In this document: piece after piece, positions 18,808-49,154 of the stretch
How the letters are laid out: every line of letters begins with the position of its first letter
Position numbering within the stretch: position 1 is the first letter of the stretch
Source of the DNA: Streptomyces lincolnensis
GTDB lineage: Bacteria > Actinomycetota > Actinomycetes > Streptomycetales > Streptomycetaceae
Direction: 5' to 3'
Assembly: GCF_001685355.1 (NCBI RefSeq)
Contig: NZ_CP016438.1
Span: 6,262,001-6,326,000, forward strand
DNA length: 64,000 nucleotides
Made by a program: the position numbers and the translations under genes
The notes under the pieces: generated by a model
Database searches by the model: none
The model's input: only the letters and a program-made list of their open reading frames with translations
What the model was told of the DNA's origin: nothing

Positions 18808-18819
18808 CTACGCGCGTTA
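18808..18819. promoter_or_regulatory. Palindromic operator variant upstream of bmpA
   Basis: CTACGCGCGTTA, matching 10 of 12 positions of the palindrome found before add, deoC and the purine nucleoside phosphorylase gene, and preceded by the same AT. It lies 104 bases before the bmpA start and overlaps a possible -10 element. Confidence 0.6.
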
Positions 18820-18923
18820 CGATGCCGCGAAGCCGACGCCGCCGGGGCGTCGCGGCCCGAGCACTGGCATGGTGCTCACATGAAGCGCCGACATGGCGCT
18901 CAGGTCAGGTGAAGGAGCCTCCC

Positions 18924-19982
18924 GTGCGCCGGGTAGCCAAGCTTTCCGCTGCGTGTATCGCTTCCGCAGCTCTCGCACTGACTGCCACCGCGTGTGGCAG
19001 CACATCCTCCGAGAACGACAGTTCGTCCTCGGCCTCCGACGGCGGCAAGGACGGTGTCAAGATCGGCCTCGCCTTCGACGTCGGCGGCCGTGGTGACCGT
19101 TCCTTCAACGACTCCGCGGCGCGCGGTGCGGACAAGGCCAAGGAGGAGTTCGGCGGCGACATCAAGGAGCTCACCGCCAAGAGCTCCGACACCGAGGCCG
19201 ACCGTGAGCAGCGTCTGTCGGACCTGGCCGACGCCGGCTACAACCCGGTCATCGGTGTGGGCTTCGCCTACGCCACGTCGATCGGCAAGGTGTCCGCGAA
19301 GTACCCGAAGGTGAGCTTCGGCATCATCGACTCGGTGGTGGAGGCCAAGAACGTCAACAGCATCACCTTCACCGAGGAGCAGGGCTCCTACCTGGCCGGT
19401 GTCGCCGCGGCGCTGAAGACCAAGAAGGACCACGTCGGCTTCGTCGGCGGCGTCGACACCCCGCTGATCAAGAAGTTCGAGGCGGGCTACGTCCAGGGCG
19501 TCAAGGACACCAAGCCGAGCGTCAAGGTCGACGTCCAGTACCTGAGCCGCGGCACCGACCTGTCCGGCTTCTCCAGCCCGGACAAGGGCAAGGAGGCCGC
19601 GTCGGGCATGCTCGACAACGGCGCGGACGTGGTCTACGCGGCGGCCGGTTCCTCCGGCAACGGCGCGATCGAGGCGGTCAACGGCGTCAAGGGCGCCTGG
19701 GCCATCGGCGTGGACTCCGACCAGTACAACATCCCGGGTCTGGCCAAGTACAAGAACTCGATCCTGACCTCGATGGTCAAGAACGTGGATGTCGGTGTCT
19801 ACGACTTCATCAAGTCGGTCCACGACGCCAAGCCGCTGACCGGCGTCAACAACTACTCGCTGGCCACCGACGGTGTCTCGCTCGCCACCAGCGGCGGCTT
19901 CATCGACGACATCAAGCCCCAGCTGGACGCGGCGAAGAAGAAGATCGTCGACGGCGGCATCAAGGTCAAGACCACTCCGTGA
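18924..19982 (+). CDS. bmpA: BmpA-type nucleoside-binding lipoprotein of an ABC importer
   Basis: The 352-aa product starts at GTG 18924 with GGAG nine bases upstream. It has a lipoprotein signal (VRRVAKL, a hydrophobic stretch, then TATAC with the lipidated Cys). A Ser-rich linker follows, then a Bmp/PnrA domain: GLAFDVGGRGDRSFNDSA, EQRLSDLADAGYNPVIGVGF and WAIGVDSDQ. PnrA proteins bind purine nucleosides outside the membrane. The ATPase and two permeases follow directly, and salvage enzymes lie behind them, so nucleoside uptake is a firm inference. A terminator separates it from the ATPase, allowing the binding protein to be expressed in excess. Confidence 0.93.
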   Translation: MRRVAKLSAACIASAALALTATACGSTSSENDSSSSASDGGKDGVKIGLAFDVGGRGDRSFNDSAARGADKAKEEFGGDIKELTAKSSDTEADREQRLSDLADAGYNPVIGVGFAYATSIGKVSAKYPKVSFGIIDSVVEAKNVNSITFTEEQGSYLAGVAAALKTKKDHVGFVGGVDTPLIKKFEAGYVQGVKDTKPSVKVDVQYLSRGTDLSGFSSPDKGKEAASGMLDNGADVVYAAAGSSGNGAIEAVNGVKGAWAIGVDSDQYNIPGLAKYKNSILTSMVKNVDVGVYDFIKSVHDAKPLTGVNNYSLATDGVSLATSGGFIDDIKPQLDAAKKKIVDGGIKVKTTP

Positions 19983-20005
19983 CCTGAGGTTCCCGGCCGA
20001 ACCTG

Positions 20006-20043
20006 GGCTCGGCGAGGGGGCGTTGACAGCCCCTCGCCGAGCC
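20006..20043 (+). terminator. Terminator after bmpA with the next promoter's -35 in its loop
   Basis: Arms 20006-20019 and 20030-20043 are perfect 14-bp complements. The 10-base loop contains TTGACA (20023-20028), and 16 bases after it is TAACAA (20045-20050), a possible -10 for the ABC operon. Confidence 0.75.
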
Positions 20044-20050
20044 ATAACAA
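20023..20050 (+). promoter_or_regulatory. Predicted promoter of the nucleoside ABC operon
   Basis: TTGACA (20023-20028), 16-base spacer, TAACAA (20045-20050). The expected start near 20057 is immediately before the palindrome at 20061-20072. Confidence 0.5.
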
Positions 20051-20060
20051 TGTGTCAACT

Positions 20061-20072
20061 CTACGCGTGTAG
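20061..20072. promoter_or_regulatory. Palindromic operator variant upstream of the ABC operon
   Basis: CTACGCGTGTAG, one change from the 12-bp palindrome shared with add, deoC and the phosphorylase gene, again preceded by CT/T. It lies just downstream of the predicted transcription start, a position suited to repression. Confidence 0.65.
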
Positions 20073-20146
20073 CACGGAGTTGCCGCGCTAGCGTCACCGA
20101 CGCCTGCCCTCCCCTACGCAGCCCTTTTCCCCGAGGAGAGTGCGCC

Positions 20147-21706
20147 ATCAACGCGTCCAGCCCTCCCGCAGCCGTCGAACTGCGCGGCATCACCAAGCGA
20201 TTCCCCGGCGTCGTCGCCAACCGGGACATCGACATCACCGTCAGCACCGGCACCGTCCACGCCCTGTGCGGTGAGAACGGCGCCGGCAAGTCCACCCTGA
20301 TGAAGATCCTCTACGGCATGCAGCAGCCGGACGAGGGCACCATCACGGTGGCCGGCGAGCGGGTCACCTTCAATAACCCCGCCGACGCCATCGCCCGCGG
20401 CATCGGCATGGTGCACCAGCACTTCATGCTCGCCGACAACCTCACCGTCCTGGAGAACGTCGTTCTCGGCGCGGAGAAGCTGTACGGCATCGGCGCCAAG
20501 GCGCGCACGAAGATCAAGGAGATCTCCGACGCGTACGGACTGGGCGTCCGCCCCGACGTCCTCCTGGAGGAACTCGGCGTCGCCGACCGCCAGCGCGTGG
20601 AGATCCTCAAGGTCCTCTACCGCGGCGCCCGGACCCTCATCCTCGACGAGCCCACCGCCGTCCTCGTGCCCCAGGAGGTCGACGCCCTCTTCGACAACCT
20701 GCGCGAGCTGAAGGCCGAGGGCCTCACCGTCATCTTCATCTCCCACAAGCTGGGCGAGGTGCTCTCCGTCGCCGACGAGATCACCGTCATCCGGCGCGGC
20801 ACCACCGTCGGCACGGTGGACCCGCGGACCACCACCTCCAAGCAGCTCGCCGAGCTGATGGTGGGCAGCGAACTGCCCACCCCGGAGACCCACGAGTCCA
20901 CGGTCACGGACGTGGCGATGCTCACGGTGGACGGACTGCGTCTGAGCCAGACCGACCTCGACGGCGTCGAGCGCATCATCCTCGACCGGATCGGCTTCAC
21001 CATCCACAAGGGCGAGATCCTCGGCATCGCCGGTGTGGAGGGCAACGGCCAGTCGGAGCTGGTCGAGGCGATCATGGGCATCCGCACCCCCGACGCCGGC
21101 ACCATCACGCTCGACGGCACCGACATCTCCCAGACCGCCACCCGCCGCCGCCGCGAGGCCGGCGTCGGCTACATCCCCGAGGACCGCCACCGCCACGGCC
21201 TGCTCCTCGAAGCCCCGCTGTGGGAGAACCGCATCCTCGGCCATGTCACCGAGAAGCCCAACGCGCGCGGCGGCCTCCTCGACCTCAAGGGCGCCCGCAC
21301 CGACACCCAGCGGATCATCGAGGACTACGACGTCCGCACGCCCGGTATCGAGGTCACCGCCGCCTCGCTGTCCGGCGGCAACCAGCAGAAGCTGATCGTC
21401 GGCCGCGAGATGAGCCACGCGCCCAAGCTCCTCATCGCCGCCCACCCCACCCGCGGTGTGGACGTCGGAGCCCAGGCCGCCATCTGGGACCACATCCGGC
21501 AGGCCCGCCGCGAGGGCCTGGCCGTGCTGCTGATCTCGGCCGACCTGGACGAGCTCATCGGACTCTCCGACACCCTGCGGGTGATGTACCGCGGCCGCCT
21601 GGTCGCCGACGCCGACCCCGCCACGATCACCCCCGAAGAGCTGGGCTCCGCCATGACGGGTGCGGCCTCCGGCCACCTGGAGCACACAGAGGACGACGCC
21701 CGATGA
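20147..21706 (+). CDS. Nucleoside ABC importer ATP-binding protein, apparent ATC start
   Basis: The 519-aa protein has two ABC domains (RbsA/YufO type) powering the BmpA-linked nucleoside importer. Walker A GENGAGKST occupies residues 43-51. ABC signatures and a Walker B ending LILDEPTAVL follow in the first half; the second half has GVEGNGQSE and LSGGNQQK. The first canonical in-frame start, ATG 20300, lies inside Walker A and cannot be the true start. GAGGAGAG at 20133-20140 is correctly spaced for ATC at 20147, which begins INASSPPAAVELRGITKRF, the expected family N-terminus. Either ATC is used or the base is a sequencing or assembly error. The stop overlaps the next start (ATGA). Confidence 0.88.
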   Translation: MNASSPPAAVELRGITKRFPGVVANRDIDITVSTGTVHALCGENGAGKSTLMKILYGMQQPDEGTITVAGERVTFNNPADAIARGIGMVHQHFMLADNLTVLENVVLGAEKLYGIGAKARTKIKEISDAYGLGVRPDVLLEELGVADRQRVEILKVLYRGARTLILDEPTAVLVPQEVDALFDNLRELKAEGLTVIFISHKLGEVLSVADEITVIRRGTTVGTVDPRTTTSKQLAELMVGSELPTPETHESTVTDVAMLTVDGLRLSQTDLDGVERIILDRIGFTIHKGEILGIAGVEGNGQSELVEAIMGIRTPDAGTITLDGTDISQTATRRRREAGVGYIPEDRHRHGLLLEAPLWENRILGHVTEKPNARGGLLDLKGARTDTQRIIEDYDVRTPGIEVTAASLSGGNQQKLIVGREMSHAPKLLIAAHPTRGVDVGAQAAIWDHIRQARREGLAVLLISADLDELIGLSDTLRVMYRGRLVADADPATITPEELGSAMTGAASGHLEHTEDDAR

Positions 21707-22830
21707 ACAAGCTCACCGCACGGATCGACAAGGAGCGGCTGCTCCTCGGCCTCGCGGCCCCGCTGCTCGCGCTCGTCGCGGCGATCGTCGTCACCACCCT
21801 GGTGATCCTCGCCACCGGCAAGAACCCGGGCGCCGCCTTCAGCGACATGCTGACCTACGGCTCCGCCAGCGACAGCCAGGTCTACATCCTCAACAAGGCG
21901 ACGACGTACTACCTGGCGGGTGTCGCGGTGGCCGTCGGCTTCCGCATGAACCTGTTCAACATCGGCGTCGACGGCCAGTACCGGCTCGCCGCGTTCATCG
22001 CCGCCGTCCTCGGCGGGGCGCTGACCGTGCCCGGCTGGATCGCCATCCCGCTGATCATCCTGTGCGCCATGGCGACCGGCGCCCTGTGGGCGGCCATCGC
22101 GGGCGTCCTCAAGGTGACCCGCGGGGTCAGCGAGGTCATCTCGACGATCATGCTCAACTCGATCGCCACCGCGGTCATCGCCTACCTGCTCCAGCCCGGA
22201 AAGCTCGCCGAGCTCCAGAGCGGCGGCACGGTCGTCTCCACCAAGCCGCTGCCGAAGGACTCGTACTTCTTCTCCATCGACACCGGCCCGGCCGGTGAAC
22301 TGTGGGGCTTCATCGTCATCGCCGCGCTCGTCGGCGTCGCGTACTGGTTCATCCTCGGCCGCACCCGGTTCGGCTTCGACCTGCGCACCGTGGGCCAGTC
22401 CGAGAGCGCCGCCGCCGCGAGCGGTGTCAGCGTGAAGAAGATGGTCGCCACCAGCATGATCATCTCGGGTGCGGTGGCCGGTCTGATCGGCATGCCGACC
22501 CTCCTCAACGACAGCCACCAGTTCAGCAACGACTTCCCGGCGGGCATCGGCTTCACCGGCATCGCCATCGCGCTGCTCGGCCGCAACCACCCGGTCGGCA
22601 TCGCCCTCGGCGCCCTGCTGTGGGGCTTCCTGGAGCGCACCACCAACCACCTGGAATTCGAGGGCTACGACAAGGAGATCCTCGGCGTCATCCAGGGCGT
22701 CATCGTCCTGTGTGTCGTCATCGCCTACGAGGTCGTACGCCGCTACGGCCTCAAGCGCCAGCAGCAGCGGGTCGGCGCCGAACTCGCCGCCCAGGCCGCC
22801 GCCCCGACCGAGAAGCAGGAGGTGGCGTGA
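21703..22830 (+). CDS. Nucleoside ABC importer permease (first of pair)
   Basis: A 375-aa branched-chain/ribose-type ABC permease (BPD_transp_2) with about nine to ten hydrophobic helices. FRMNLFNIGVDGQYRLAA carries the conserved N-IGxxGQ signature of the nucleoside YufP/NupP group, and TRGVSEVISTIMLN marks the cytoplasmic coupling region. The ATG overlaps the ATPase stop, and the gene ends in TGATG shared with the second permease. It forms half of the membrane channel through which BmpA delivers nucleosides. Confidence 0.92.
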   Translation: MNKLTARIDKERLLLGLAAPLLALVAAIVVTTLVILATGKNPGAAFSDMLTYGSASDSQVYILNKATTYYLAGVAVAVGFRMNLFNIGVDGQYRLAAFIAAVLGGALTVPGWIAIPLIILCAMATGALWAAIAGVLKVTRGVSEVISTIMLNSIATAVIAYLLQPGKLAELQSGGTVVSTKPLPKDSYFFSIDTGPAGELWGFIVIAALVGVAYWFILGRTRFGFDLRTVGQSESAAAASGVSVKKMVATSMIISGAVAGLIGMPTLLNDSHQFSNDFPAGIGFTGIAIALLGRNHPVGIALGALLWGFLERTTNHLEFEGYDKEILGVIQGVIVLCVVIAYEVVRRYGLKRQQQRVGAELAAQAAAPTEKQEVA

Positions 22831-24113
22831 TGACTGCCACGATGACCGACACGCCGCCGCCCGCGGCGCCCAAGGCGGACAGCGGATCCAGGAGCGGCCG
22901 CTCGCTCGGCATGATCCTCATGATCGTCGCGGGTGCGCTGCTTCTGGTGTCCGCGGTGCGCGTCCTCACCGGCGCCGAGCAGCTCACCTCCGACGGACAG
23001 ATCAGCGCCGCGCTGGCCCTGGCCGTGCCCATCGGTCTGGCCGGTCTCGCCGGTCTGTGGTCGGAGCGGGCCGGCGTGGTCAACATCGGCCTCGAAGGCA
23101 TGATGATCCTCGGCACCTTCGGCGCCGGCTGGATCGGCTGGCAGTCCAGCCCCTGGCTCGGCCTGCTGTGCGGGGTCGGCTTCGGCGTCCTCGGCGGTCT
23201 GGTGCACGCCGTCGCGACCATCACCTTCGGCGTCGACCACATCGTCTCCGGTGTCGCGGTCAACCTGCTCGCCCTCGGCGCCACCCAGTACCTCGCCAAG
23301 CTCGTCTTCTCGGAGGGCGGCGCGGCGGACGCGGGCGGCAACCCCAAGCAGTCCCCGCCCGCGGACTCGCTGCCCAACATCGACGTGCCCGGTCTCTCGG
23401 ACGCCCTCCAGTCGGTCGAGAAGCACCACTGGTTCCTGATCTCCGACCTCGCCGGCATCATCGGCGGACTGGTCACCAACCTGTCCGTGATCACGCTGCT
23501 CGCCGCGGCGCTGTTCGTGGGCAGCTGGTGGCTTCTGTGGCGCACCGCCTTCGGCCTCCGGCTGCGCTCCTGCGGCGAGAACCCGGTCGCCGCCGAGTCC
23601 CTCGGCGTCAACGTCTACAAGTACAAGTACGCGGCCGTGGCCGTCTCCGGCGGCCTCGCCGGACTCGGCGGCGCCTTCCTCGCGCTGGTCACCTCGCACA
23701 TCTACCTGGAGGGCCAGACCGGCGGGCGCGGCTACATCGGCCTCGCGGCCATGATCTTCGGCAACTGGCGTCCGGGCGGCCTGGCGATGGGGGCCGGCCT
23801 GTTCGGCTTCTCCGACGCCCTCCAGCTGCGCAACGGCGGCGAGACCGTGCACGCGCTGCTGCTCCTGCTGGTCGTGCTGCTCGCGCTCCTGGCCGGCTGG
23901 AAGCTGTACAAGAAGGCGCTGTGGCAGGGCGTGGCCAGCGCGGTCACCGCCGTCCTCGTCCTGGTCTGGTACCTGCTCACCGACAACGTGCCCAGCGACT
24001 TCGTGGGCGCCACCCCGTACGTCGTCACCCTGCTGGTGCTGTCGCTGTCCGCGCAGCGCCTCAGGATGCCCAAGGCGGACGGTATGCGGTACCGGAAGGG
24101 ACAGGGCAAGTGA
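22830..24113 (+). CDS. Nucleoside ABC importer permease (second of pair)
   Basis: A 427-aa permease of the YufQ/NupQ type. After a polar N-terminal extension of about 25 residues come repeated hydrophobic helices. ERAGVVNIGLEGMMILG is the family signature near residue 80, GVDHIVSGVAVNLLALG follows, and GGRGYIGLAAMIFGNWRP lies in the second half. It is 60-80 residues longer than typical relatives because of C-terminal helices after about residue 345. The start overlaps the preceding stop by one base, and its stop overlaps the cytidine deaminase start, so the four genes are translationally linked. Confidence 0.92.
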   Translation: MTATMTDTPPPAAPKADSGSRSGRSLGMILMIVAGALLLVSAVRVLTGAEQLTSDGQISAALALAVPIGLAGLAGLWSERAGVVNIGLEGMMILGTFGAGWIGWQSSPWLGLLCGVGFGVLGGLVHAVATITFGVDHIVSGVAVNLLALGATQYLAKLVFSEGGAADAGGNPKQSPPADSLPNIDVPGLSDALQSVEKHHWFLISDLAGIIGGLVTNLSVITLLAAALFVGSWWLLWRTAFGLRLRSCGENPVAAESLGVNVYKYKYAAVAVSGGLAGLGGAFLALVTSHIYLEGQTGGRGYIGLAAMIFGNWRPGGLAMGAGLFGFSDALQLRNGGETVHALLLLLVVLLALLAGWKLYKKALWQGVASAVTAVLVLVWYLLTDNVPSDFVGATPYVVTLLVLSLSAQRLRMPKADGMRYRKGQGK

Positions 24114-24502
24114 CCGACGTCGACTGGGAGCGGTTGCGCGAGGTGGCCCGGGACGCCATGTCCCGGGCGTACGCCCCGTACTCCCGCTACCCGGTCGGCG
24201 TGGCGGCCCTCGTCGACGACGGCCGGATCGTCTCCGGCTGCAACGTCGAGAACGCCTCCTACGGCCTCGGCCTGTGCGCCGAGTGCGGACTGGTCTCGGA
24301 GCTCCAGAACACCGGGGGCGGCCGGCTGACGCACTTCACCTGCGTCGACGGCCACGGCGAGATCCTCGTCCCGTGCGGCCGCTGCCGGCAGCTGCTGTAC
24401 GAGTTCGGCGGCGCCGACCTGCTGCTGGAGACCCCGGCGGGCATCCTGCCGCTGTCGAGGATGCTGCCCCAGGCCTTCGGCCCGGACCATCTCACCAAGT
24501 AA
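24110..24502 (+). CDS. cdd: Cytidine deaminase
   Basis: A 130-aa protein of the tetrameric, single-domain type. It converts cytidine and deoxycytidine to uridine and deoxyuridine. The catalytic zinc motifs are CAEC near residue 56 (with the proton-shuttling Glu) and PCGRCRQ near 87. The substrate-binding GCNVENASYG lies just before. The GTG start overlaps the permease stop (GTGA), making deamination a direct continuation of uptake in the same transcript. Length and motifs are normal. Confidence 0.95.
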   Translation: MTDVDWERLREVARDAMSRAYAPYSRYPVGVAALVDDGRIVSGCNVENASYGLGLCAECGLVSELQNTGGGRLTHFTCVDGHGEILVPCGRCRQLLYEFGGADLLLETPAGILPLSRMLPQAFGPDHLTK

Positions 24503-24525
24503 CTCCCGTTAGGAAAGCCAAAGCC

Positions 24526-25809
24526 ATGGCCATGGACGCCATCTCCGTCATCCGCACCAAGCGGGACCGCGGTGAACTCAGCGACGAGCAGATCGACTGG
24601 GTCATCGACGCGTACACCCGCGGGGAGGTCGCCGACGAGCAGATGTCCGCGCTCGCCATGGCGATCCTGATCAACGGCATGAACCGCCGGGAGATCGCCC
24701 GCTGGACGGCCGCGATGATCGCCTCCGGCGAGCGCATGGACTTCGCGTCCCTGTCCCGTCCGACGGCCGACAAGCACTCCACGGGCGGCGTGGGCGACAA
24801 GATCACCCTCCCGCTGGCGCCCCTGGTGGCGGCCTGCGGTGCGGCGGTCCCGCAGCTCTCCGGCCGCGGTCTCGGCCACACCGGCGGCACCCTGGACAAG
24901 CTGGAGTCGATCCCGGGCTGGCGCGCGCTGCTCTCCAACGAGGAGATGCTGTCCGTGCTCGACGGCACCGGCGCGGTGATCTGCGCGGCGGGCGACGGCC
25001 TGGCCCCCGCGGACAAGAAGCTCTACGCCCTGCGTGACGTCACGGGCACGGTGGAGGCGATCCCCCTGATCGCCTCGTCCATCATGTCGAAGAAGATCGC
25101 GGAGGGGACGGGCTCGCTCATCCTGGACGTGAAGGTCGGCACCGGTGCCTTCATGAAGACGATCGAGGACGCCCGCGAGCTGGCGTCCACGATGGTCGGC
25201 CTCGGCACGGACCACGGGGTCAGGACGGTCGCGCTGCTGACGGACATGTCCACCCCCCTCGGCCGCACGGCGGGCAACGCCCTGGAGGTCCGCGAGTCCG
25301 TCGAGGTCCTGGCGGGCGGCGGCCCGTCGGACGTCGTGGAACTGACCCTCGCCCTGGCCCGCGAGATGCTGGACGCGGCGGGCGTGCGCGACGCCGACCC
25401 CGCGAAGGCGCTGGCCGACGGCTCCGCGATGGACGTCTGGCGCCGGATGATCACGGCCCAGGGCGGCGACCCGGACGCGACCCTGCCGGTCGCCCGCGAG
25501 CAGCATGTGGTGAAGGCGAGCGCCTCCGGCGTCCTCACCCGCCTCGACGCCTACGGCATCGGCGTCGCCGCCTGGCGCCTCGGCGCGGGCCGCGCCCGCA
25601 AGGAGGACCCGGTCCAGGCGGGCGCGGGCGTGGAGATGCACGCCAAGCCCGGCGACCCGGTCACCGAGGGCCAGCCCCTCCTGACCCTCCACACCGACAC
25701 CCCGGAACGCTTCGAGTACGCCCTCCAGTCGATCGAGGGCTCCTACGACATCGCGGCGGCGGGGACGGACTTCACGGCGTCCCCGGTCGTACTGGAACGC
25801 ATCGCCTGA
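24526..25809 (+). CDS. deoA: Thymidine/pyrimidine nucleoside phosphorylase
   Basis: The 427-aa enzyme phosphorolyses thymidine and deoxyuridine to the base and (deoxy)ribose 1-phosphate. Family segments are DKHSTGGVGDKITL (phosphate binding), SGRGLGHTGGTLDKLE (the thymidine phosphorylase signature) and VKVGTGAFMKT. The C-terminal part GAGVEMHAKPGDPVTEGQPLLTLHTD is the lipoyl-like domain of the class. It starts 23 bases after cdd and ends the operon at a strong hairpin. Its sugar phosphate product is the substrate side of deoC, once isomerised. Confidence 0.95.
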   Translation: MAMDAISVIRTKRDRGELSDEQIDWVIDAYTRGEVADEQMSALAMAILINGMNRREIARWTAAMIASGERMDFASLSRPTADKHSTGGVGDKITLPLAPLVAACGAAVPQLSGRGLGHTGGTLDKLESIPGWRALLSNEEMLSVLDGTGAVICAAGDGLAPADKKLYALRDVTGTVEAIPLIASSIMSKKIAEGTGSLILDVKVGTGAFMKTIEDARELASTMVGLGTDHGVRTVALLTDMSTPLGRTAGNALEVRESVEVLAGGGPSDVVELTLALAREMLDAAGVRDADPAKALADGSAMDVWRRMITAQGGDPDATLPVAREQHVVKASASGVLTRLDAYGIGVAAWRLGAGRARKEDPVQAGAGVEMHAKPGDPVTEGQPLLTLHTDTPERFEYALQSIEGSYDIAAAGTDFTASPVVLERIA

Positions 25810-25831
25810 CCTGCGGTTTCCTCATTCGGGT

Positions 25832-25865
25832 GAACGGGATCGGTGGACCACCACCGGTCCCGTTC
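25832..25865 (+). terminator. Terminator of the nucleoside salvage operon
   Basis: Fifteen-base arms (25832-25846; 25851-25865) with one mismatch and a 4-base loop, 22 bases after the deoA stop. Confidence 0.75.
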
Positions 25866-25903
25866 GGCATGCTGGGATCGGTGACGACCGATTGGAGACC
25901 GCC

Positions 25904-26491: not shown

Positions 26492-26498
26492 CTCCCAG

Positions 26499-27422: not shown

Positions 27423-27573
27423 GGAGCCTCCTCAGAGGTGAGGAAGGCGTGCGGTGTCCAGGGCGGCGCCGATATGTGGGGCATACAGGCAACCCTCCGG
27501 GGAAGGAGGGCCGCGGGTCAATGTGATCCCGGTCGGCGGGCGACCCGGGCGGCAGCCGAGGACGCCGGCCGCG

Positions 27574-30480: not shown

Positions 30481-30496
30481 CGCCATAATCGTTCCC

Positions 30497-32357: not shown

Positions 32358-32369
32358 CTACGCGCGTAG
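32358..32369. promoter_or_regulatory. Perfect palindromic operator upstream of add
   Basis: CTACGCGCGTAG, a perfect 12-bp palindrome preceded by GAT. It precedes a -10-like TAGAGT (32374-32379) that ends six bases before the add ATG, so the site would sit between -35 and -10 of a leaderless promoter. No good -35 is visible. Confidence 0.72.
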
Positions 32370-32385
32370 GAGTTAGAGTGCGGAG

Positions 32386-33549
32386 ATGACGAGCCAGACT
32401 GAGCGGATGGGGAAGACCCCGAGCCCGGACCAGATCCGCCGGGCACCCAAGGTTCTGCTGCACGACCACCTCGACGGCGGGCTGCGCCCCGGCACGATCG
32501 TCGACCTCGCCCGGGACACCGGATACGCCCACCTCCCCGAGACCGACCCCGACAAGCTCGGCGTCTGGTTCCGCGAGGCCGCCGACTCCGGTTCCCTGGA
32601 GAGGTACTTGGAGACCTTCTCGCACACCGTCGGCGTGATGCAGACCCGTGACGCCCTCGTCCGGGTCGCCGCCGAGTGCGCCGAGGACCTCGCCGAGGAC
32701 GGCGTCGTCTACGCGGAGGTGCGCTACGCCCCCGAACAGCACCTGAACGGCGGTCTCACCCTCGAAGAGGTCGTCGAGGCCGTCAACGAGGGCTTCCGGG
32801 AAGGGGAGCGGCGGGCCCGCGAGAGCGGCCGGCGCATCCGGGTGGGCGCCCTGCTCACCGCCATGCGGCACGCGGCCCGTGCCCTGGAGATCGCCGAACT
32901 CGCCAACCGCTACCGCGACCTGGGCGTGGTCGGCTTCGACATCGCGGGCGCCGAGGCCGGTTACCCGCCCACCCGGCACCTGGACGCCTTCGAGTACCTC
33001 AAGCGCGAGAACAACCACTTCACCATCCACGCCGGCGAGGCCTTCGGGCTGCCGTCGATCTGGCAGGCCCTCCAGTGGTGCGGCGCCGACCGGCTCGGCC
33101 ACGGCGTGCGCATCATCGACGACATCCAGGTCCACGAGGACGGCTCGGTCAAGCTCGGGCGACTCGCCTCCTACGTCCGCGACAAGCGCGTCCCGCTGGA
33201 GCTGTGCCCCAGCTCCAACCTCCAGACCGGGGCCGCGAGCTCGTACACCGAGCATCCCATCGGACTGCTGCGGCGGCTGCACTTCCGGGCCACCGTGAAC
33301 ACCGACAACCGCCTGATGTCGGGCACCAGCATGAGCCGGGAATTCGAGCACCTTGTCGAGGCGTTCGGTTATACGCTCGATGACATGCAGTGGTTCTCCG
33401 TCAATGCGATGAAATCAGCGTTCATTCCTTTCGATGAACGACTCGCCATGATCAATGACGTCGTCAAGCCCGGATATGCGGAGCTGAAGTCCGAATGGCT
33501 GTTCCAGCAGACCGCTTCCACCAGCGGATCTGTGGACTCGGAAGGCTGA
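32386..33549 (+). CDS. add: Adenosine deaminase
   Basis: The 387-aa enzyme deaminates adenosine and deoxyadenosine to inosine and deoxyinosine. Zinc and catalytic residues are visible: HDHLDGG at 26-32 (the HxH), HAGE at 215-218, a GHG at 238-240, and NTDN at 305-308 with the catalytic Asp pair region. SSNLQT at 276-281 is also typical. The first bases downstream of the promoter appear to be the start codon. Product inosine is the substrate of the purine nucleoside phosphorylase at 48294, which carries the same operator. Codon use in the last 60 codons is less GC-rich than the rest. Confidence 0.95.
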
Positions 33550-40419: not shown

Positions 40420-40436
40420 GTGGTGCGGGAGCGGGA

Positions 40437-40480: not shown

Positions 40481-40487
40481 CTTCACG

Positions 40488-41381
40488 TCAGTACGAGGAG
40501 CCGGATGCTCCCAGTGAACCCGTGGGGTGCCAGACCGTCTTCGTCTCCAGGAACGCCGTCATGCGGTCGATGCCCGGAGCCGCCGCCCAGTTGTCCACAG
40601 GCTGTGGACGGAGAACGCGCTTCAGGTTGTCGGCCGCGGCGATCTCCAGTTCCTTCGCCAGCGCTTCGTCGGCGCCGGCGCCCGCGAGATCGATCGCGTT
40701 GACGTCCTGGTGGGCCGCGAGGGGGGCCGCCAGCTCCGCCGTACGGCCCGAGAGGACGTTCACCACGCCGCCGGGGACGTCGGAGGTGGCCAGGACCTCG
40801 CCGAGGGAGAGGGCCGGGAGCGGGGAGTTCTCGCTCGCCACCACGACCGCCGTGTTGCCCGTGGCGATCACCGGGGCGAGGACCGAGACCAGGCCCAGGA
40901 AGGACGACTCCTGGGGGGCCAGGACCGCGACCACACCCGTCGGCTCCGGGGAGGAGAGGTTGAAGAACGGGCCCGCCACCGGGTTGCCGCCGCCCACCAC
41001 CTGGGCGATCTTGTCGGTCCAGCCCGCGTACCAGACCCAGCGGTCGATCGTCGCGTCCACCTGGTCCGCCGCCTTGGACTTCGACAGGCCCTCGGCGTCG
41101 GCCACCTCGCGCACGAACTGCGCCTTGCGGCCCTCCAGCATCTCCGCGACGCGGTAGAGGACCTGGCCCCGGTTGTAGGCCGTCGCGCCGGACCAGCCGC
41201 CGAACGCCTTACGGGCGGCGACGACCGCGTCACGGGCGTCCTTGCGGGAGGACAGGGGCGCGTTCGCCAGCCAGTTGCCCTTCGAATCCGACACCTCGTA
41301 CACCCGGCCGCTCTCGGAACGCGGGAACTTCCCGCCGACGTACAGCTTGTAGGTCTTCAGGACGGTGAGCCGATCAGACAT
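40488..41381 (-). CDS. Aldehyde dehydrogenase-like protein lacking the catalytic Cys domain
   Basis: This 297-aa protein covers only the NAD-binding part of the aldehyde dehydrogenase fold: KTYKLYVGGKFPRSESGRVYEV, ARKAFGGWSGATAYNRGQVLYR and PTGVVAVLAPQESSFLGLVSVLAPVIATGNT. It then runs to a normal stop 18 bases before a terminator. The ELGG and GQxC catalytic segments are absent. It overlaps the complete enzyme upstream by 8 bases, implying coupled, perhaps stoichiometric, synthesis. It resembles the non-catalytic second module of ALDH16-type enzymes. A structural or regulatory partner role is inferred. Confidence 0.85.
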   Translation of the reverse strand: MSDRLTVLKTYKLYVGGKFPRSESGRVYEVSDSKGNWLANAPLSSRKDARDAVVAARKAFGGWSGATAYNRGQVLYRVAEMLEGRKAQFVREVADAEGLSKSKAADQVDATIDRWVWYAGWTDKIAQVVGGGNPVAGPFFNLSSPEPTGVVAVLAPQESSFLGLVSVLAPVIATGNTAVVVASENSPLPALSLGEVLATSDVPGGVVNVLSGRTAELAAPLAAHQDVNAIDLAGAGADEALAKELEIAAADNLKRVLRPQPVDNWAAAPGIDRMTAFLETKTVWHPTGSLGASGSSY

Positions 41382-42822
41382 CGAGGTACGCCTCCAGGCC
41401 GTGGCGGCCGCCCTCGCGGCCGAAGCCCGACTCCTTGTACCCGCCGAACGGCGAGGTCGGGTCGAACTTGTTGAACGTGTTGGACCAGACGACACCCGCG
41501 CGCAGCTTGTTCGCGACGGCGAGGATCCGGGAGCCCTTCTCGGACCAGATGCCGGCGGACAGGCCGTACTGCGTGTTGTTCGCCTTGGCGACCGCCTCGT
41601 CGGGCGTACGGAAGCTCAGCACCGACAGCACCGGGCCGAAGATCTCGTCGCGGGCGATGGTGTGCGCCTGGGTGACGTTCGTGAAGAGCGTCGGGGCGAA
41701 CCAGTAGCCGGAGGACGGGAGTTCGCAGGCCGCGGACCAGCGTTCGGCGCCCTCCGCCTCGCCCGCCTCGACGAGCGTGGTGATGCGGGAGAGCTGTTCG
41801 GCGGAGTTGATCGCGCCGATGTCCGTGTTCTTGTCCAGCGGATCGCCGAGACGGAGCGTCGACAGACGGCGCTTGAGGGACTCCAGCAACTCGTCCTGGA
41901 TCGACTCCTGCACCAGGAGCCGGCTGCCCGCGCAGCACACCTGGCCCTGGTTGAAGAAGATCCCGTTGACGATCCCCTCCACCGCCTGGTCGATCGGGGC
42001 GTCGTCGAAGACGATGTTGGCGCCCTTGCCGCCCAGTTCGAGGGTGAGCTTCTTGCGGCTGCCCGCGACCGTGCGGGCGATCTCCTTGCCGACGGCCGTG
42101 GAGCCGGTGAAGGCGACCTTGTTCACGTCCGGATGCCCGACCAGCGCGGCGCCCGTGTCGCCGTATCCCGGAAGGATGTTGACGACACCCCTGGGCAGGC
42201 CCGCCTGACGGCAGATGTCCGCGAAGAACAGGGCGGACAGGGGGGTGGTCTCGGCGGGCTTCAGCACCACCGTGTTGCCCGTCGCCAGCGCCGGGGCGAT
42301 CTTCCACGCCAGCATCAGGAGCGGGAAGTTCCACGGGATGACCTGGCCGGCCACGCCGAGGGGCCGCGGTGAGGTGCCGAAGCCGGCGTGGTCGAGCTTG
42401 TCGGCCCAGCCCGCGTAGTAGAAGAAGTGCGCGGCGACCAGGGGGAGGTCGGCGTCCCTCGTCTCCTTGATGGGCTTGCCGTTGTCCAGGGTCTCCAGGA
42501 CGGCGAGCTCGCGGCTGCGCTCCTGGATGATCCGGGCGATGCGGAACAGGTACTTGGCGCGCTCGGAACCGGGCAGCGCCGACCACTTCTCGAAGGCCTT
42601 GCGGGCGGCCTTCACCGCGCGGTCGACGTCCGCCTCGCCCGCCTGGGCGATCTCGGAGAGGACCTCCTCGGTGGCGGGGGAGACCGTCTTGAAGACTTTG
42701 CCGTCGGCCGCCTCCGTGAACTCCCCGTCGATGAACAGGCCGTAGGAGGGCGCGATGTCGACGACGGAGCGGGACTCGGGAGCGGGTGCGTACTCGAAAG
42801 CGGATGCAGATGCGGATGCCAT
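41374..42822 (-). CDS. Aldehyde dehydrogenase (complete)
   Basis: A 482-aa NAD(P)-dependent aldehyde dehydrogenase with the full set of residues: VIPWNFPLLM, the FTGSTAVGKEIA nucleotide loop near 238, general base Glu262 in LELGGKGAN, catalytic Cys in GQVCCAGS at 293-300, and EIFGPVLSV later. It lies between deoC and the truncated dehydrogenase in one operon. DeoC releases acetaldehyde from deoxyribose 5-phosphate, so oxidation of that acetaldehyde to acetate is the natural assignment. The distance to deoC is five bases. Confidence 0.92.
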   Translation of the reverse strand: MASASASAFEYAPAPESRSVVDIAPSYGLFIDGEFTEAADGKVFKTVSPATEEVLSEIAQAGEADVDRAVKAARKAFEKWSALPGSERAKYLFRIARIIQERSRELAVLETLDNGKPIKETRDADLPLVAAHFFYYAGWADKLDHAGFGTSPRPLGVAGQVIPWNFPLLMLAWKIAPALATGNTVVLKPAETTPLSALFFADICRQAGLPRGVVNILPGYGDTGAALVGHPDVNKVAFTGSTAVGKEIARTVAGSRKKLTLELGGKGANIVFDDAPIDQAVEGIVNGIFFNQGQVCCAGSRLLVQESIQDELLESLKRRLSTLRLGDPLDKNTDIGAINSAEQLSRITTLVEAGEAEGAERWSAACELPSSGYWFAPTLFTNVTQAHTIARDEIFGPVLSVLSFRTPDEAVAKANNTQYGLSAGIWSEKGSRILAVANKLRAGVVWSNTFNKFDPTSPFGGYKESGFGREGGRHGLEAYLDV

Positions 42823-42827
42823 GGTGA

Positions 42828-43787
42828 TCAGTCCACCGTCACGTAGTCGGGGCCGGAGTAGCGGCCGGTGGCCAGCTTCTGACGCTGCATCAGCAGGTCG
42901 TTCAGGAGCGAGGAGGCGCCGAAGCGGAACCAGTGGTTGTCCAGCCAGTCCTCGCCGACGGTCTCGTTGACCAGCACGAGGAACTTGATCGCGTCCTTGG
43001 TCGTGCGGATGCCGCCTGCGGGCTTCACGCCGATCTGCACGCCGGTCTGCGCACGGAAGTCGCGCACGGCCTCCAGCATCAACAGGGTGTTCGCGGGAGT
43101 GGCGTTCACCGCCACCTTGCCGGTCGACGTCTTGATGAAGTCCGCCCCGGCCAGCATGCCGAGCCAGCTCGCGCGGCGGATGTTGTCGTACGTCGACAGC
43201 TCGCCGGTCTCGAAGATGACCTTCAGACGGGCGCTGGTCCCGCAGGCCTCCTTCACGGCGACGATCTCGTCGTACACCTTCATGTAGTTGCCCGCGAGGA
43301 ACGCGCCGCGGTCGATGACCATGTCGATCTCGTCGGCGCCCGCGGCGACCGCGTCACGGACGTCGGCCAGCTTCACGGCGAGCGCGGCGCGGCCCGCCGG
43401 GAAGACGGTGGCGACCGAGGCGACCTTCACGGTCGAGCCGGCGACGGCCTCCTTGGCGGCGGGCACCATGTCGGGATAGACGCAGACGGCCGCGGTCGCG
43501 GGGGTCGTACGGTCGGTCGGGTCGGGGCGGACCGCCTTGGCGCCGAGCGCCCGGACCTTGCCCGGGGTGTCCGCGCCTTCCAGCGTGGTCAGGTCGACCA
43601 TCGAGATGGCGAGGTCGATCGCGTACGCCTTCGCGGTCGTCTTGATGGAACGGGTGCCGAGCGAGGCGGCGCGCGCCTCCAGGCCGACCGCGTCGACGCC
43701 GGGCAGCCCGTGGAGGAAGCGGCGCAGCGTGCCGTCGGACGCGGTGACGTCGGCGAGAGCTCGTGCGGCGGGTGAAGTGGTGGGCAT
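42828..43787 (-). CDS. deoC: Deoxyribose-phosphate aldolase
   Basis: The 319-aa class I aldolase splits 2-deoxyribose 5-phosphate into glyceraldehyde 3-phosphate and acetaldehyde. Family segments are VASVATVFPAG, DEIDMVIDRGAF, KVIFETGEL, the Schiff-base Lys in DFIKTSTGK and VGVKPAGGIRT-like sequence. It is of the longer actinobacterial type (E. coli DeoC is about 260 aa). The ATG has GGTGA upstream; the palindromic operator ends 19 bases before it. It is first gene of the operon with two aldehyde dehydrogenases. Confidence 0.95.
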   Translation of the reverse strand: MPTTSPAARALADVTASDGTLRRFLHGLPGVDAVGLEARAASLGTRSIKTTAKAYAIDLAISMVDLTTLEGADTPGKVRALGAKAVRPDPTDRTTPATAAVCVYPDMVPAAKEAVAGSTVKVASVATVFPAGRAALAVKLADVRDAVAAGADEIDMVIDRGAFLAGNYMKVYDEIVAVKEACGTSARLKVIFETGELSTYDNIRRASWLGMLAGADFIKTSTGKVAVNATPANTLLMLEAVRDFRAQTGVQIGVKPAGGIRTTKDAIKFLVLVNETVGEDWLDNHWFRFGASSLLNDLLMQRQKLATGRYSGPDYVTVD

Positions 43788-43806
43788 GGTCACCAGACGA
43801 GCATAT

Positions 43807-43818
43807 CTACGCGCGTAG
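43807..43818. promoter_or_regulatory. Perfect palindromic operator upstream of deoC
   Basis: CTACGCGCGTAG, identical to the site before add, and flanked by TAT as there by GAT. It lies 20-31 bases upstream of the deoC start codon on the minus strand. Confidence 0.72.
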
Positions 43819-43954
43819 CGGCTGTACACCCCGGAGAGTCGGTTCCTGGGCGGGCCCTACGACGGGCCCCGTGGACCCCACCGTGAGGAGGTGATCGTGA
43901 GGCGGCCGTGAGGCGGTCGTTCCCCCGCCACGGGGCTGAGGCAGAATCGGGGGC

Positions 43955-44581: not shown

Positions 44582-44701
44582 GGTCGGCTTCGGTATCGGC
44601 TTCGGCTTTGGCTTCGGTATCGGCTTTGGCTTTGCCTTCGCTTTATCTTTGTCTTTGTCTTTGCCTTTGGCGGTGGCTTGCGGGCGGTGGTGGGCTCAGC
44701 T
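44582..44701. repeat. Hexanucleotide low-complexity tract
   Basis: Bases 44583-44663 are a run of six-base units (GGCTTC, GGTATC, GGCTTT, then TCTTTG three times), unusually T-rich for this genome. It lies between convergent genes and has no stem-loop. Translated in one frame it gives alternating Gly-Phe then Leu-Ser residues, but no start or context supports coding. Confidence 0.7.
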
Positions 44702-45946: not shown

Positions 45947-46130
45947 GGCTGGCTCCAGGGTGGGTCGGGGGGCGCTTGCGGACCACCGTTGCCCGGGGGT
46001 GGGGCGGGGTGGGGAGCCTGGGTCAATGCGCCGCGGTAAATCACCCGATGGAGTGGGTTGGGCTGGGCTGGATTGGGCTGCGTTGTGGTGGGTTGCGTTG
46101 TGCTGGGCTGGGGCTGTTTCCCCAGCCCGT
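45947..46130. other. Intergenic stretch with G/T-rich low complexity
   Basis: Bases 46052-46113 are a string of GGGCTG/GGTTG units. They run into the hairpin at 46105-46128 that probably terminates the mutase gene. No gene is visible. Confidence 0.5.
46105..46128 (-). terminator. Hairpin after the phospho-sugar mutase gene
   Basis: Arms GGGCTGGGG (46105-46113) and CCCCAGCCC (46120-46128) with a 6-base loop, directly after the mutase stop on the minus strand. Confidence 0.55.
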
Positions 46131-47780
46131 TCAGATGCCTGCGGCCCTGGACAGGTCCTGCTTGATCGTGGTGAGGAGCGTTGTCGCCCTGGTGCGGGCC
46201 GCCGGGAGGTCGGCGTGCGAACCCACCGGGATCACCACCTCCAGGTAGCACTTCAGCTTCGGCTCCGTGCCGCTCGGGCGGACGATGACCCTGGCGCCGT
46301 CCAGCGTGTAGCGCAGGCCGTCGGTGGGGGGAAGCTGCGCGGTGCCCCGGGTGAGGTCGTCGGCGCGGGTGATGGGCAGGCCCGCGAGGTGGGTCGGGGG
46401 GTGCTCGCGGAGGCGGTCCATCGCGGCGGTGATCAGGGACAGGTCCTCGACGCGGACCGAGAGCTGGTCCGTCGCGTGCAGGCCGTGCTCCACCGCGAGG
46501 TCGTCCAGCAGGTCGAGGAGGGTACGGCCCTCCTCCTTGAGCGTCGAGGCCAGTTCCGTGATCAGGAGGGCCGCGGTGATGCCGTCCTTGTCGCGTACGC
46601 CCTCGGGGTCGACGCAGTAGCCGAGCGCCTCCTCATAGCCGTAGCGCAGGCCCTCGACGCGGGCGATCCACTTGAAGCCGGTGAGGGTCTCCTCGTAGGG
46701 GAGACCCGTCTTCTCGGCGATCCTGCGCAGGAGGGAGGAGGAGACGATGGACTCGGCGAAGGTGCCCTGCGCTCCGCGGGCGACCAGGTGGGCTGCGAGC
46801 AGGGCGCCCACCTCGTCGCCCCTCAGCATGCGCCAGGCGTCGTCTTCGTTGCCTTCGTTGTCTTCCTTTACGGCCACCGCGCAGCGGTCCGCGTCCGGGT
46901 CGTTGGCGATGATCAGGTCCGGGTTCGTCTCGCGGGCCACCGCGAAGGCGAGGTCCATCGCGCCGGGCTCTTCCGGGTTGGGGAAGGCGACGGTCGGGAA
47001 GTCCGGGTCGGGGTCCGCCTGTTCGTTGACCAGCGTGGGCGGCGGGAAGCCCGCGCGGGTGAAGGCGGCGAGGAGGGTGTCCTTGCCTACGCCGTGCATC
47101 GCCGTGTAGACGGTGCGGGCCGTGCGGGGGGAGGTGGGGGTGAGTACGGCGTCCGTGCGGGCCAGGTAGGCGTCCAGGACGGCGTCGTCGAGGGTGTCCC
47201 AGCCGGTGGTGGGGCGGGGGACGTCGTTGAGGGTGGTGATCGCCGCGATCTCCGCCGCGATCTGCGCGTCGGCGGGCGGGACGATCTGGGAGCCGTCGCC
47301 CAGGTAGACCTTGTAGCCGTTGTCGCGGGGCGGGTTGTGGCTGGCGGTGACCTCTACGCCGGCTACGGCGCCCAGGTGCCTTATGGCGTACGCCAGGACG
47401 GGGGTGGGGAGGGGGCGGGGGAGGACGGCCGCTCTGAGGCCGGCGCCGGTCATGACGGCTGCGGTGTCCCTGGCGAAGTCGGCGGACTTGTGGCGGGCGT
47501 CGTAGCCGATGACGACCAGGCCGTTGGTGTGGCCCTGCTGGGTGAGGTGGGCGGCGAGGCCGGCGGCTGCGCGGATGACGACGGAGCGGTTCATGCGCAT
47601 GGGGCCGGCGCCGAGTTCGCCTCTCAGGCCCGCGGTGCCGAACTGGAGGGTGCCGGCGAAGCGTGCGGTGAGCTCTTGGACGTCCTCGGCGTCGATCAGC
47701 TTGGCGAGTTCGGCGCGGGTTTCCGCGTCGGGGTCCTCGGTCAGCCATGCCTTGGCTCGGGCGATGAGGTCGTCATGCAC
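46131..47780 (-). CDS. Phospho-sugar mutase, PGM2-like (possible phosphopentomutase)
   Basis: A 549-aa alpha-D-phosphohexomutase family protein with four domains: phosphoserine loop TASHNPPRDNGYKVY near residue 143, metal loop NDPDADR, sugar-binding EEALGYCVDP and phosphate-binding RPSGTEPK near the C-terminus. FGTAGLRG near residue 47 and the length place it with the PGM2/PgcA type rather than the roughly 450-aa ManB type. Human PGM2 is a phosphopentomutase. Here, in a window with phosphorylases and deoC but no DeoB, conversion of (deoxy)ribose 1-phosphate to the 5-phosphate is likely. It is usually annotated phosphomannomutase. Confidence 0.88.
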   Translation of the reverse strand: MHDDLIARAKAWLTEDPDAETRAELAKLIDAEDVQELTARFAGTLQFGTAGLRGELGAGPMRMNRSVVIRAAAGLAAHLTQQGHTNGLVVIGYDARHKSADFARDTAAVMTGAGLRAAVLPRPLPTPVLAYAIRHLGAVAGVEVTASHNPPRDNGYKVYLGDGSQIVPPADAQIAAEIAAITTLNDVPRPTTGWDTLDDAVLDAYLARTDAVLTPTSPRTARTVYTAMHGVGKDTLLAAFTRAGFPPPTLVNEQADPDPDFPTVAFPNPEEPGAMDLAFAVARETNPDLIIANDPDADRCAVAVKEDNEGNEDDAWRMLRGDEVGALLAAHLVARGAQGTFAESIVSSSLLRRIAEKTGLPYEETLTGFKWIARVEGLRYGYEEALGYCVDPEGVRDKDGITAALLITELASTLKEEGRTLLDLLDDLAVEHGLHATDQLSVRVEDLSLITAAMDRLREHPPTHLAGLPITRADDLTRGTAQLPPTDGLRYTLDGARVIVRPSGTEPKLKCYLEVVIPVGSHADLPAARTRATTLLTTIKQDLSRAAGI

Positions 47781-48002
47781 GGTCGGTCAGCCCTCTCGTC
47801 TTCTCGTTGTGGGTGCCTGTGGATGCCTGCGGCGCGCTGTGCGGGTCCGGTGGGGGCGGGTGTAGCGCCCACGGTTGTGTGGTGGGTCGGGGCCGGGGCG
47901 GGGGGTCTCCGTCCTCGGTCCGGCGGTGCTGTGTCTTCTAGCTGTGCTGCGTGTTGGACGCCGGACGCTGCGGGCGGACACCCCCCGCCCCGTCCCCTTG
48001 CC

Positions 48003-48029
48003 GCCGTGGGCGGCTGAGACGCCCACGGC
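48003..48029. terminator. Hairpin in the gap upstream of the mutase
   Basis: Arms GCCGTGGGCG (48003-48012) and CGCCCACGGC (48020-48029) with a 7-base loop. It could end the phosphorylase transcript, but it lies 265 bases beyond that stop. Confidence 0.4.
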
Positions 48030-48068
48030 CCGGAGGGTGCCTCATGCCGGAGGGCGACTTCCGCTTGT

Positions 48069-48111
48069 TAGGGGCGCGGGGAACTGCGCGACCAGCCACG
48101 ACGGACCCGCA
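48069..48111. repeat. Dispersed repeat, copy B
   Basis: AGGGGCGCGGGGAACTGCGC followed by GACCAGCCACGACGGACCCG. It matches copy C 118 bases downstream in core and orientation. Confidence 0.8.
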
Positions 48112-48186
48112 GCCGCCATACGACCGAACAAGGCACCCCAGACGGCGAGACCTGGACGTCCGACTCATGGCAACCGCACCCATCTC

Positions 48187-48230
48187 AGGGGCGCGGGGAA
48201 CTGCGCGACCAGCCCCCACCCACCCGCAGA
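48187..48230. repeat. Dispersed repeat, copy C
   Basis: AGGGGCGCGGGGAACTGCGC followed by GACCAGCCCCCACCCACCCG, then CAGA. The tail resembles copy D at 59104 (CCCCCACGCACCCGCAG). Confidence 0.8.
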
Positions 48231-48293
48231 CAACACACGACCTCACACCGCACCCCGCAGAGCGAAACGCACCCCGTGACGCGAACCGTAAGT

Positions 48294-49118
48294 CTAGAGA
48301 CGGGCCAGGACCTGGGTGAGGAGGGAACCCATGCGGGTGGCGCTGTCGCGGCCGGCCTGGAGGACCTCCTCGTGGTTGAGGGGCTCGCCGGTCATGCCGG
48401 CGGCGAGGTTGGTGACGAGGGAGATGCCGAGGATCTCGGCGCCGGCCTCGCGGGCGGCGATCGCTTCGAGGACCGTGGACATGCCGACGAGATCCGCGCC
48501 GATGACGCGGGCCATGCGGATCTCGGCCGGGGTCTCGTAGTGCGGGCCGGGGAACTGGGCGTAGACGCCCTCTTCGAGGGTGGGGTCGACCTCCTTGCAC
48601 AGGGCGCGCAGGCGGGGGGAGTAGAGGTCGGTGAGGTCGACGAAGTTGGCGCCGATGATGGGGCTGGTCGCCGTGAGGTTGATGTGGTCGCTGATCAGGA
48701 CGGGCTGGCCGGGGCGCATGCCCTCGCGGAGGCCGCCGCAGCCGTTGGTGAGGATGATCGTCTTGCAGCCGGCCGACACCGCGGTGCGGACGCCGTGGGC
48801 GACGGCGGCGACGCCGCGGCCCTCGTAGTAGTGCGTGCGGCCCAGGAAGACCAGCGCGCGCTTGGCGCCGAGGGTGTACGAGCGGATCTTGCCTCCGTGG
48901 CCCTCGACGGCGGGGGGCGGGAAACCGGGAAGCTCCGTCACCTGGAGGTCGGCGTCGGGAGTGCCCAGGGCGTCCACGGCGGGGGCCCAGCCGGAGCCCA
49001 TCACGAGGGCGACGTCGTGGGTCTCGGCGCCGGTCAGCTCGCGCAGGCGCGCGGCGGCGGCGTCGGCGGCGGCGTGAGGATCGCCCTGGATGTCGTCCGG
49101 AAGAAGAGATGCGTTCAC
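48294..49118 (-). CDS. punA: Purine nucleoside phosphorylase (trimeric type)
   Basis: A 274-aa phosphorylase of the trimeric class, splitting inosine, guanosine and their deoxy forms into base and (deoxy)ribose 1-phosphate. Motifs are [54 protein letters not shown] and SLVTNLAAG. The GTG at 49116-49118 lies six bases after a TACCCT -10 (minus strand), pointing to a leaderless mRNA; the operator covers the -35 area. Inosine from add is the expected substrate. Confidence 0.94.
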
Positions 49119-49142
49119 GCGAAGAGGGTAGCCGGTTTGGGC

Positions 49143-49154
49143 CTACGCGCGTAG
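49143..49154. promoter_or_regulatory. Perfect palindromic operator upstream of the purine nucleoside phosphorylase gene
   Basis: CTACGCGCGTAG; on the gene strand it is preceded by CAT, matching the AT that precedes the add and bmpA sites. It is 25 bases before the start codon, over the expected -35. Confidence 0.72.

Follow-up and report, generated by a model that had tools for sequence, protein, structure and literature searches.

The 64,000-nucleotide window analysed here (positions 6,262,001 to 6,326,000 of contig NZ_CP016438.1 of Streptomyces lincolnensis) is part of a single contig of 10,319,054 bases, the genome called G000 below. It holds dispersed genes for the uptake and breakdown of nucleosides, which share a 12-bp palindrome, CTACGCGCGTAG, near their starts. 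As judged by sequence comparison, this palindrome is real and very probably a family-wide operator for nucleotide scavenging.

On the forward strand, the bmpA gene (18924..19982; Pfam Bmp, scanned as the open reading frame (ORF) 18720-19982) encodes a nucleoside-type substrate-binding protein of an ATP-binding cassette (ABC) transporter. It is followed by the ABC ATPase (20147..21706), with a probable ATC start codon, and by ORFs containing both permease genes of the transporter (21220..24113), named by eye from the translation. Next come the cytidine deaminase-like gene cdd (24110..24502) and an ORF containing deoA, which is thymidine phosphorylase-like (24274..25809), both also named by eye. 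The adenosine deaminase gene add (32386..33549), on the same strand, scores above the cut-off of NF006847. The reverse strand carries deoC (42828..43793), a deoxyribose-phosphate aldolase-like gene named by eye with its start read from the sequence. Directly 3' of it lies an aldehyde dehydrogenase-like gene (41374..42822, named by eye), and then a second such gene (40488..41495, Aldedh). Also on this strand are a phosphomannomutase/phosphopentomutase-like gene with PGM_PMM domains and no site of its own (46131..47780), and the purine nucleoside phosphorylase (PNP) gene (48294..49118), which scores above the cut-off of TIGR01698. A DeoR-family regulator gene with HTH_DeoR and DeoR sensor domains (51695..52657, forward strand) is a syntenic but unproven candidate for control of these genes.

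Exact copies of CTACGCGCGTAG, for which no strand is assigned, lie before add (32358..32369), deoC (43807..43818) and PNP (49143..49154). A copy with one mismatch, CTACGCGTGTAG, precedes the ABC ATPase (20061..20072, forward strand), and a copy with two mismatches, CTACGCGCGTTA, precedes bmpA (18808..18819, forward strand). All five had been reported in a preliminary description of this DNA, made from the sequence alone, and the scan of the 64-kb window recovers each of them. The same description stated that the window holds no other match, which is true for matches with at most two mismatches. At one mismatch or fewer, four matches are observed where 0.16 are expected, and none of 100 dinucleotide shuffles reached four. 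At three mismatches or fewer there is no excess (26 matches against a shuffle mean of 47), so only near-perfect matches are informative.

The distance from the site to the likely start codon, as read from the sequence, is 104 nt for bmpA (GTG 18924), 74 nt for the ABC ATPase (ATC, 20147), 16 nt for add (ATG 32386), 13 nt for deoC (GTG 43793) and 24 nt for PNP (GTG 49118). With gaps of 13-104 nt, the sites do lie within about 110 bases of the gene starts, as first described. Each is also close to a TANNNT box, which here means a match to the consensus of a -10 element rather than a mapped transcription start. In bmpA the terminal TA of the site opens the box TACGAT (18818-18823), so that the distance from site end to box is -2 nt. 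It is 1 nt for deoC (TATGCT, 43805-43800, reverse strand), 4 nt for add (TAGAGT, 32374-32379), 12 nt for PNP (TACCCT, 49130-49125, reverse strand) and 16 nt for ABC (TAGCGT, 20089-20094). Outside the window, it is 4 nt for a third nucleotidase gene, 14 nt for purS and 18 nt for a purine permease gene, all three described below.

Within a gene this spacing is mostly stable among relatives: 1 nt for deoC in 11 of 11 sites, 12 nt for PNP in 31 of 34, and 4 nt for add and add2, a second adenosine deaminase gene, in 14 of 23. The box of add, deoC and PNP stops 6 nt short of the start codon (32374-32386, 43793-43805 and 49118-49130), which suggests that the mRNAs of these three genes may be leaderless.

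In the whole 10.3-Mb genome, the exact palindrome occurs four times and the reversed pattern not once. All four copies are at nucleoside genes, namely add, deoC, PNP and add2. The last gene (L016:1005-2078) is far from the cluster, and its copy of the site (614059) lies among the first codons, starting at the eighth coding base. The same placement inside the first codons of add2 is seen in the relatives represented by L063, L064, L070, L094 and L267. Since base composition alone predicts about 1.2 exact copies, it is the placement of the copies and not their number that bears weight.

A broader pattern, CTACGCGYGTWR, which also spans the bmpA and ABC variants, has 13 sites in the genome, against 0 for its reversed control. 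Nine of the 13 are at targets: bmpA, ABC, add, add2, deoC, PNP and three 5'-nucleotidase-type genes. The other four, treated as chance occurrences, have neighbours named by eye. One is intergenic, near clpP-like and NlpC/P60-like genes (1730485), one lies between convergent genes (5670230), one falls in sequence read as coding (4702024), and one is inside a LuxR-like gene (8078196). The genome-wide count proposed in the preliminary description thus finds the near-perfect sites to be placed non-randomly.

By family search, the genome has exactly three 5'-nucleotidase-type (PF02872) genes, and all three have the site. The first, of which a 491-residue part was compared, has a twin-arginine signal; its best NCBIfam match is 2',3'-cyclic-nucleotide 2'-phosphodiesterase/3'-nucleotidase, below cut-off. 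Among nucleotidase loci from 12 family genomes, 16 of 18 match the palindrome with at most two mismatches, ten of these with one mismatch; 13 of 15 still match when the three loci of G000 are removed. By comparison, 60 permuted palindromes matched on average 0.97 of the 18 loci and never more than five. In genome G256, the nucleotidase gene (L365) follows a tandem pair of CTACGCGCGTCC copies that are 14 bp apart.

The site is also conserved in related genomes, the second count that had been proposed, and it is kept at orthologous promoters. The exact palindrome is present in all 61 genomes of the genus (230 copies, against 37 of the reversed pattern), and in 149 of 150 family genomes, covering 16 of 17 genera. 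In a sample of the class, 23 of 197 genomes have it; 16 of these belong to the same genus, leaving only 7 of 181 others. Seven of the nine exact sites in those seven outside-family genomes were read (L077-L081, L095 and L096, the two in G146 being left out), and no labelled nucleoside gene was found at them.

In the family loci examined, 99 of 112 distinct exact sites stand at the starts of listed genes: PNP (34), the ABC ATPase (30), add (17), deoC (11), add2 (6) and purS (1). The loci in this tally were partly picked by the search tool and partly requested by position, and genes of relatives were named by BLAST against the proteins of G000 (with a few labels from L051) or by reading translations. 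Among the named Streptomyces loci, the exact site precedes PNP in 80 of 80; 63 of these loci contain deoC, and each of them has the exact site before that gene too. These are the best 80 of 546 loci, all from Streptomyces, and therefore close relatives with PNP proteins 91-96% identical.

The variant before bmpA is likewise conserved. Among 17 family loci, CTACGCGCGTTA is found in each of the ten that extend to the site, in a scan that tolerated one mismatch; the remaining seven end short of the site position. These loci span several genera. The invariance of CTACGCGCGTTA in ten of ten, and the fact that its final TA starts the TANNNT box, show that this is not a palindrome in decay. The same CTACGCGCGTTA also stands at the bmpA/ABC operon of G256, although that operon belongs to a different lineage (28% and 45-46% identical). 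Thus, the site tracks function and not only gene descent.

Taken together, the palindrome shows the properties of a regulon operator, with above-chance frequency, location in the promoters of related genes, and cross-species conservation at orthologous promoters. What is computed directly is the site itself, its conservation, which genes carry it and its closeness to -10-like boxes. As a repressor operator would, the site overlaps or closely adjoins the core promoter at bmpA, deoC, add, one nucleotidase and PNP (-2 to 12 nt). A protein bound there would mask the core of the promoter, which makes repression the most likely action and the best reading of the position of the sites. Family-wide conservation points to one shared switch protein. 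It is thus highly probable that a single dimeric repressor uses CTACGCGCGTAG as its operator and thereby governs the scavenging of nucleotides in Streptomyces and its family.

Streptomyces can draw phosphorus, nitrogen and carbon from the nucleotides of lysed cells. In the proposed mechanism, in which protein binding, repression and the inducer are inferred, a repressor would block transcription while substrate is lacking, by occupying the palindrome where RNA polymerase makes its footprint on each promoter. When nucleosides or a breakdown product accumulate, the repressor would be released. Expression would then rise for the secreted 5'-nucleotidase-type enzymes, which would dephosphorylate extracellular nucleotides, and for the BmpA-ABC importer, which would take up the nucleosides. 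It would also rise for the adenosine deaminases and PNP, and for deoC with its aldehyde dehydrogenases. The preliminary description had envisaged a repressor acting from uptake through aldehyde oxidation. Of that reading, one operator shared by uptake and catabolism genes is supported, as is its place at or near a -10-like box in bmpA, deoC, add and PNP; repression is what the position of the sites would imply. The reach is wider than was then proposed, since it also includes the 5'-nucleotidase-type genes and the second adenosine deaminase, and perhaps genes for purine synthesis and purine uptake.

Several observations weigh against a repressor operator of this kind. With one mismatch allowed, the genome holds just 34 sites against 22 for the reversed control. 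No TANNNT box is found 3' of the site at add2 or at two of the three nucleotidases, and the spacing from the ABC site to the nearest TANNNT is regular (16 nt) in only 10 of 30 sites. A match to the first nucleotidase protein is missing from 5 of 17 family genomes. One family genome, G263, has no exact site (it retains CTACGCGCGTTA before bmpA), and nine others have a single copy. Finally, 13 of the 112 exact family sites are away from the listed targets. Two of the 13 are contig ends beside lpd and bmpA (L042 and L048), two precede a Cof-like HAD hydrolase gene (L051 and L082), and one precedes purN-purH (L233); the remaining eight look accidental.

The palindrome could owe its presence to composition, since CGCG-rich palindromes are common in high-GC DNA and about 1.2 exact copies are expected in the genome. 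Against this stand the placement of all four exact copies at nucleoside genes, the 80 of 80 PNP and 63 of 63 deoC loci, and the 16 of 18 nucleotidase loci where permuted palindromes reach about one. The conservation data already refute chance, and it is virtually out of the question as an explanation. Another alternative is that the palindrome is bound by an activator, or is a promoter element of an alternative sigma factor, instead of being a repressor operator. At ABC and purS the TANNNT box follows the site by 14-16 nt, which puts the site close to the -35 region, a workable position for an activator. However, an overlap with the -10-like box, as in bmpA, is unsuited to classical activation. 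A -35 element of a sigma factor needs near-constant spacing, and the distance to the box varies from gene to gene (-2, 1, 4, 12, 14 and 16 nt) while being largely fixed within deoC, PNP and add. This variation argues against a sigma -35 element, and an activator or sigma element is altogether improbable.

A different question is which protein would bind the operator. The preliminary description put forward the DeoR-type protein encoded at 51695 as one candidate. In this version of the model the operator is the same and the regulator is the DeoR-family protein (51695-52657), which would sense a pentose phosphate, for instance deoxyribose-5-phosphate. All 17 family genomes searched encode the protein, at 83-96% identity in the 16 others and with a nearly invariant helix-turn-helix (HTH), and its sole match of solved structure is a deoxyribose operon repressor (E 1.2e-7). 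Homologues above 50% identity are found in only 2 of 13 outside-family genomes, which resembles the spread of the motif. Its neighbourhood is kept as well: lpd adjoins it in every one of 17 loci, and accA2 in 11 of them. In G255 and G256 it lies about 28-30 kb from a nucleoside-type ABC gene of another lineage, and in G258 at this distance from a two-piece ABC match. Such synteny is, however, general among core regulators, and it counts against reading much into this one.

Other evidence speaks against the DeoR-family protein more directly. Its promoter is without a site in 80 of 80 Streptomyces loci, where the best match within 120 bp upstream has 3-6 mismatches; an operator in the own promoter is common for DeoR-family control but not required. 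In the two outside-family genomes with its closest homologues, G104 (68% identical) and G168 (61%), no nucleoside gene lies beside any of five sites with at most one mismatch, going by the annotation made in this analysis and leaving many two-mismatch sites uninspected. The protein also falls far short of the curated cut-offs for the AgaR, GlpR and DeoR models. With the site in 0 of 80 of its own promoters and no nucleoside targets at the G104 and G168 sites, the candidacy is not supported so far, and this protein is an unlikely regulator. Its gene looks leaderless, with a GTG at the expected transcription start. A block of about 75 bp upstream (51475-51695) is conserved in most genera of the family and is unrelated to the palindrome.

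Around all 34 sites of G000 with at most one mismatch, and around the CTACGCGYGTWR site at 5670230, genes were called by a simple GC-frame rule, and no convincing candidate for an autoregulated regulator was found. An lsr2 gene (Pfam Lsr2), whose start is 172 nt away from the middle of the purS site on the opposite side, is unconvincing as the regulator. The same applies to an AAA ATPase gene 49 nt after CTACGCACGTAG, in which no DNA-binding domain was found, and to XRE- and LuxR-like genes with sites inside them. The genome has 54 genes of the LacI family; among the 30 loci scanned (24 were left out) there is one match with two mismatches (L136) and none better. A LysR gene of G268 starts close to a copy of CTACGAGCGTAG, which was judged likely to be chance.

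The operator may also reach beyond nucleosides. A site stands in the same place before purS of the purSQL genes in three genomes, as CTACGCGCGTCG in G000, as an exact copy in G191 and as CTACGCGAGTAG in G265. The identity of purS was confirmed, and in G000 its site is 14 nt 5' of the TANNNT box. A Xan_ur_permease gene has the identical variant CTACGCGCGGAG in G000, G265 and G268, and in G268 an exact site precedes purN-purH. The purSQL and purine permease sites suggest, with less certainty, a wider purine regulon.

One explanation of these sites is that the protein on the palindrome regulates purine metabolism as a whole, including de novo synthesis and nucleobase uptake, with nucleoside catabolism as only the largest visible part. 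The sites in front of purSQL, the permease gene and purN-purH speak for such a regulator. Most of them have one mismatch, however, and the background at this level is high (34 vs 22, 17 vs 10 and 19 vs 15). Moreover, in G268 another copy of CTACGCGCGGAG stands in front of a trypsin-like gene and purS has no site with at most one mismatch, and neither G000 nor G265 has such a site at purNH. A purine-wide regulator is therefore quite possible without being the probable answer. More tentatively still, the protein may be an undescribed master regulator sensing purines or nucleosides, distinct from CytR, PurR and the local DeoR. It would join extracellular nucleotide digestion, the uptake of nucleosides and purines, and catabolism as far as aldehyde oxidation to de novo purine synthesis (purSQL and, in some genera, purNH).

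To our knowledge, the operator matches no known one. Literature searches, with subscription papers and regulon databases outside their scope, found no published description of this operator or of a Streptomyces nucleoside regulator. The closest parallels are the CytR and DeoR regulons of E. coli, which cover nucleoside uptake, cdd and the deo genes. They resemble the present system in their repressor-type control of nucleoside uptake and catabolism through repeated operators, including one at deoC. Unlike them, Streptomyces has a different operator sequence, and adds 5'-nucleotidase-type genes and two adenosine deaminases; the local DeoR-family protein falls far short of the cut-off for the model of E. 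coli DeoR. PurR of Bacillus subtilis also combines purine synthesis and permease genes, a likeness that holds if the purSQL and permease sites are real, but its PurBox has another sequence.

NupR of Bacillus thuringiensis belongs to the GntR/HutC family and is a single regulator whose conserved site lies at genes for nucleoside transport (PMC9430930). That site is a 20-bp imperfect palindrome of the GntR type, whereas the Streptomyces site is a 12-bp palindrome at importer, enzyme and nucleotidase genes (PMC9430930). An extracellular 5'-nucleotidase of S. coelicolor (SCO4152), the same type of target, is described as regulated by PhoP (PMC7866108). There the signal is phosphate, while here a second, nucleoside-linked control is proposed; thus the nucleotidases may answer to two signals.

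A family-wide operator can be used both as a list of target genes and as a probe for the regulator. It predicts a link between the salvage of nucleic acids from dead cells and the supply of purines. A simple repressor model can be tested directly, given the leaderless-like promoters and the fixed geometry at deoC and PNP.

Some additional sites in G000 were considered as targets and are not claimed. Weak examples are a PhoX gene with CTACGCGCGTGG, and a carbon-nitrogen hydrolase gene and an aminotransferase gene with CTACGGGCGTAG; no TANNNT box is within reach of the site for PhoX or the hydrolase. The best NCBIfam score of the hydrolase is to N-carbamoylputrescine amidase, below cut-off. A further weak one is CTACGCGCGCAG (reverse strand, L226:1549) at the 5' end of a secreted-looking Exo_endo_phos gene, possibly another scavenging enzyme or else chance. 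Likewise, a repeated match that the authors read as resembling 23S rRNA is not counted as a target.

In G268, CTACTCGCGTAG (L248:1559) lies 46 nt 5' of a gene for a secreted-looking lamin-tail-domain protein. This protein resembles extracellular nucleases, and the site is a possible target or chance. In two genomes of the genus, the exact palindrome (L051:1501 and L082:1501) is about 20 nt 5' of the Cof-like HAD hydrolase gene mentioned above, and its neighbours are a small HTH_3-type regulator gene and a methionine aminopeptidase-like gene. Within the window, a small RelE-like gene (49219-49527, named by eye) adjoins the PNP promoter, as it does in 14 of the 80 named loci according to the annotation made in this analysis.

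The start of the ABC ATPase has a peculiarity of its own. Its reading frame has no ATG, GTG or TTG before 20300, a position that is itself 3' of the Walker A motif. The likely start is instead the ATC at 20147-20149, which has a well-placed GAGGAGA. A conserved AUC start would be unusual; the sequence GAGAGTGCG(C/T)(C/T)ATC is kept in 32 distinct contexts among the sequences compared.

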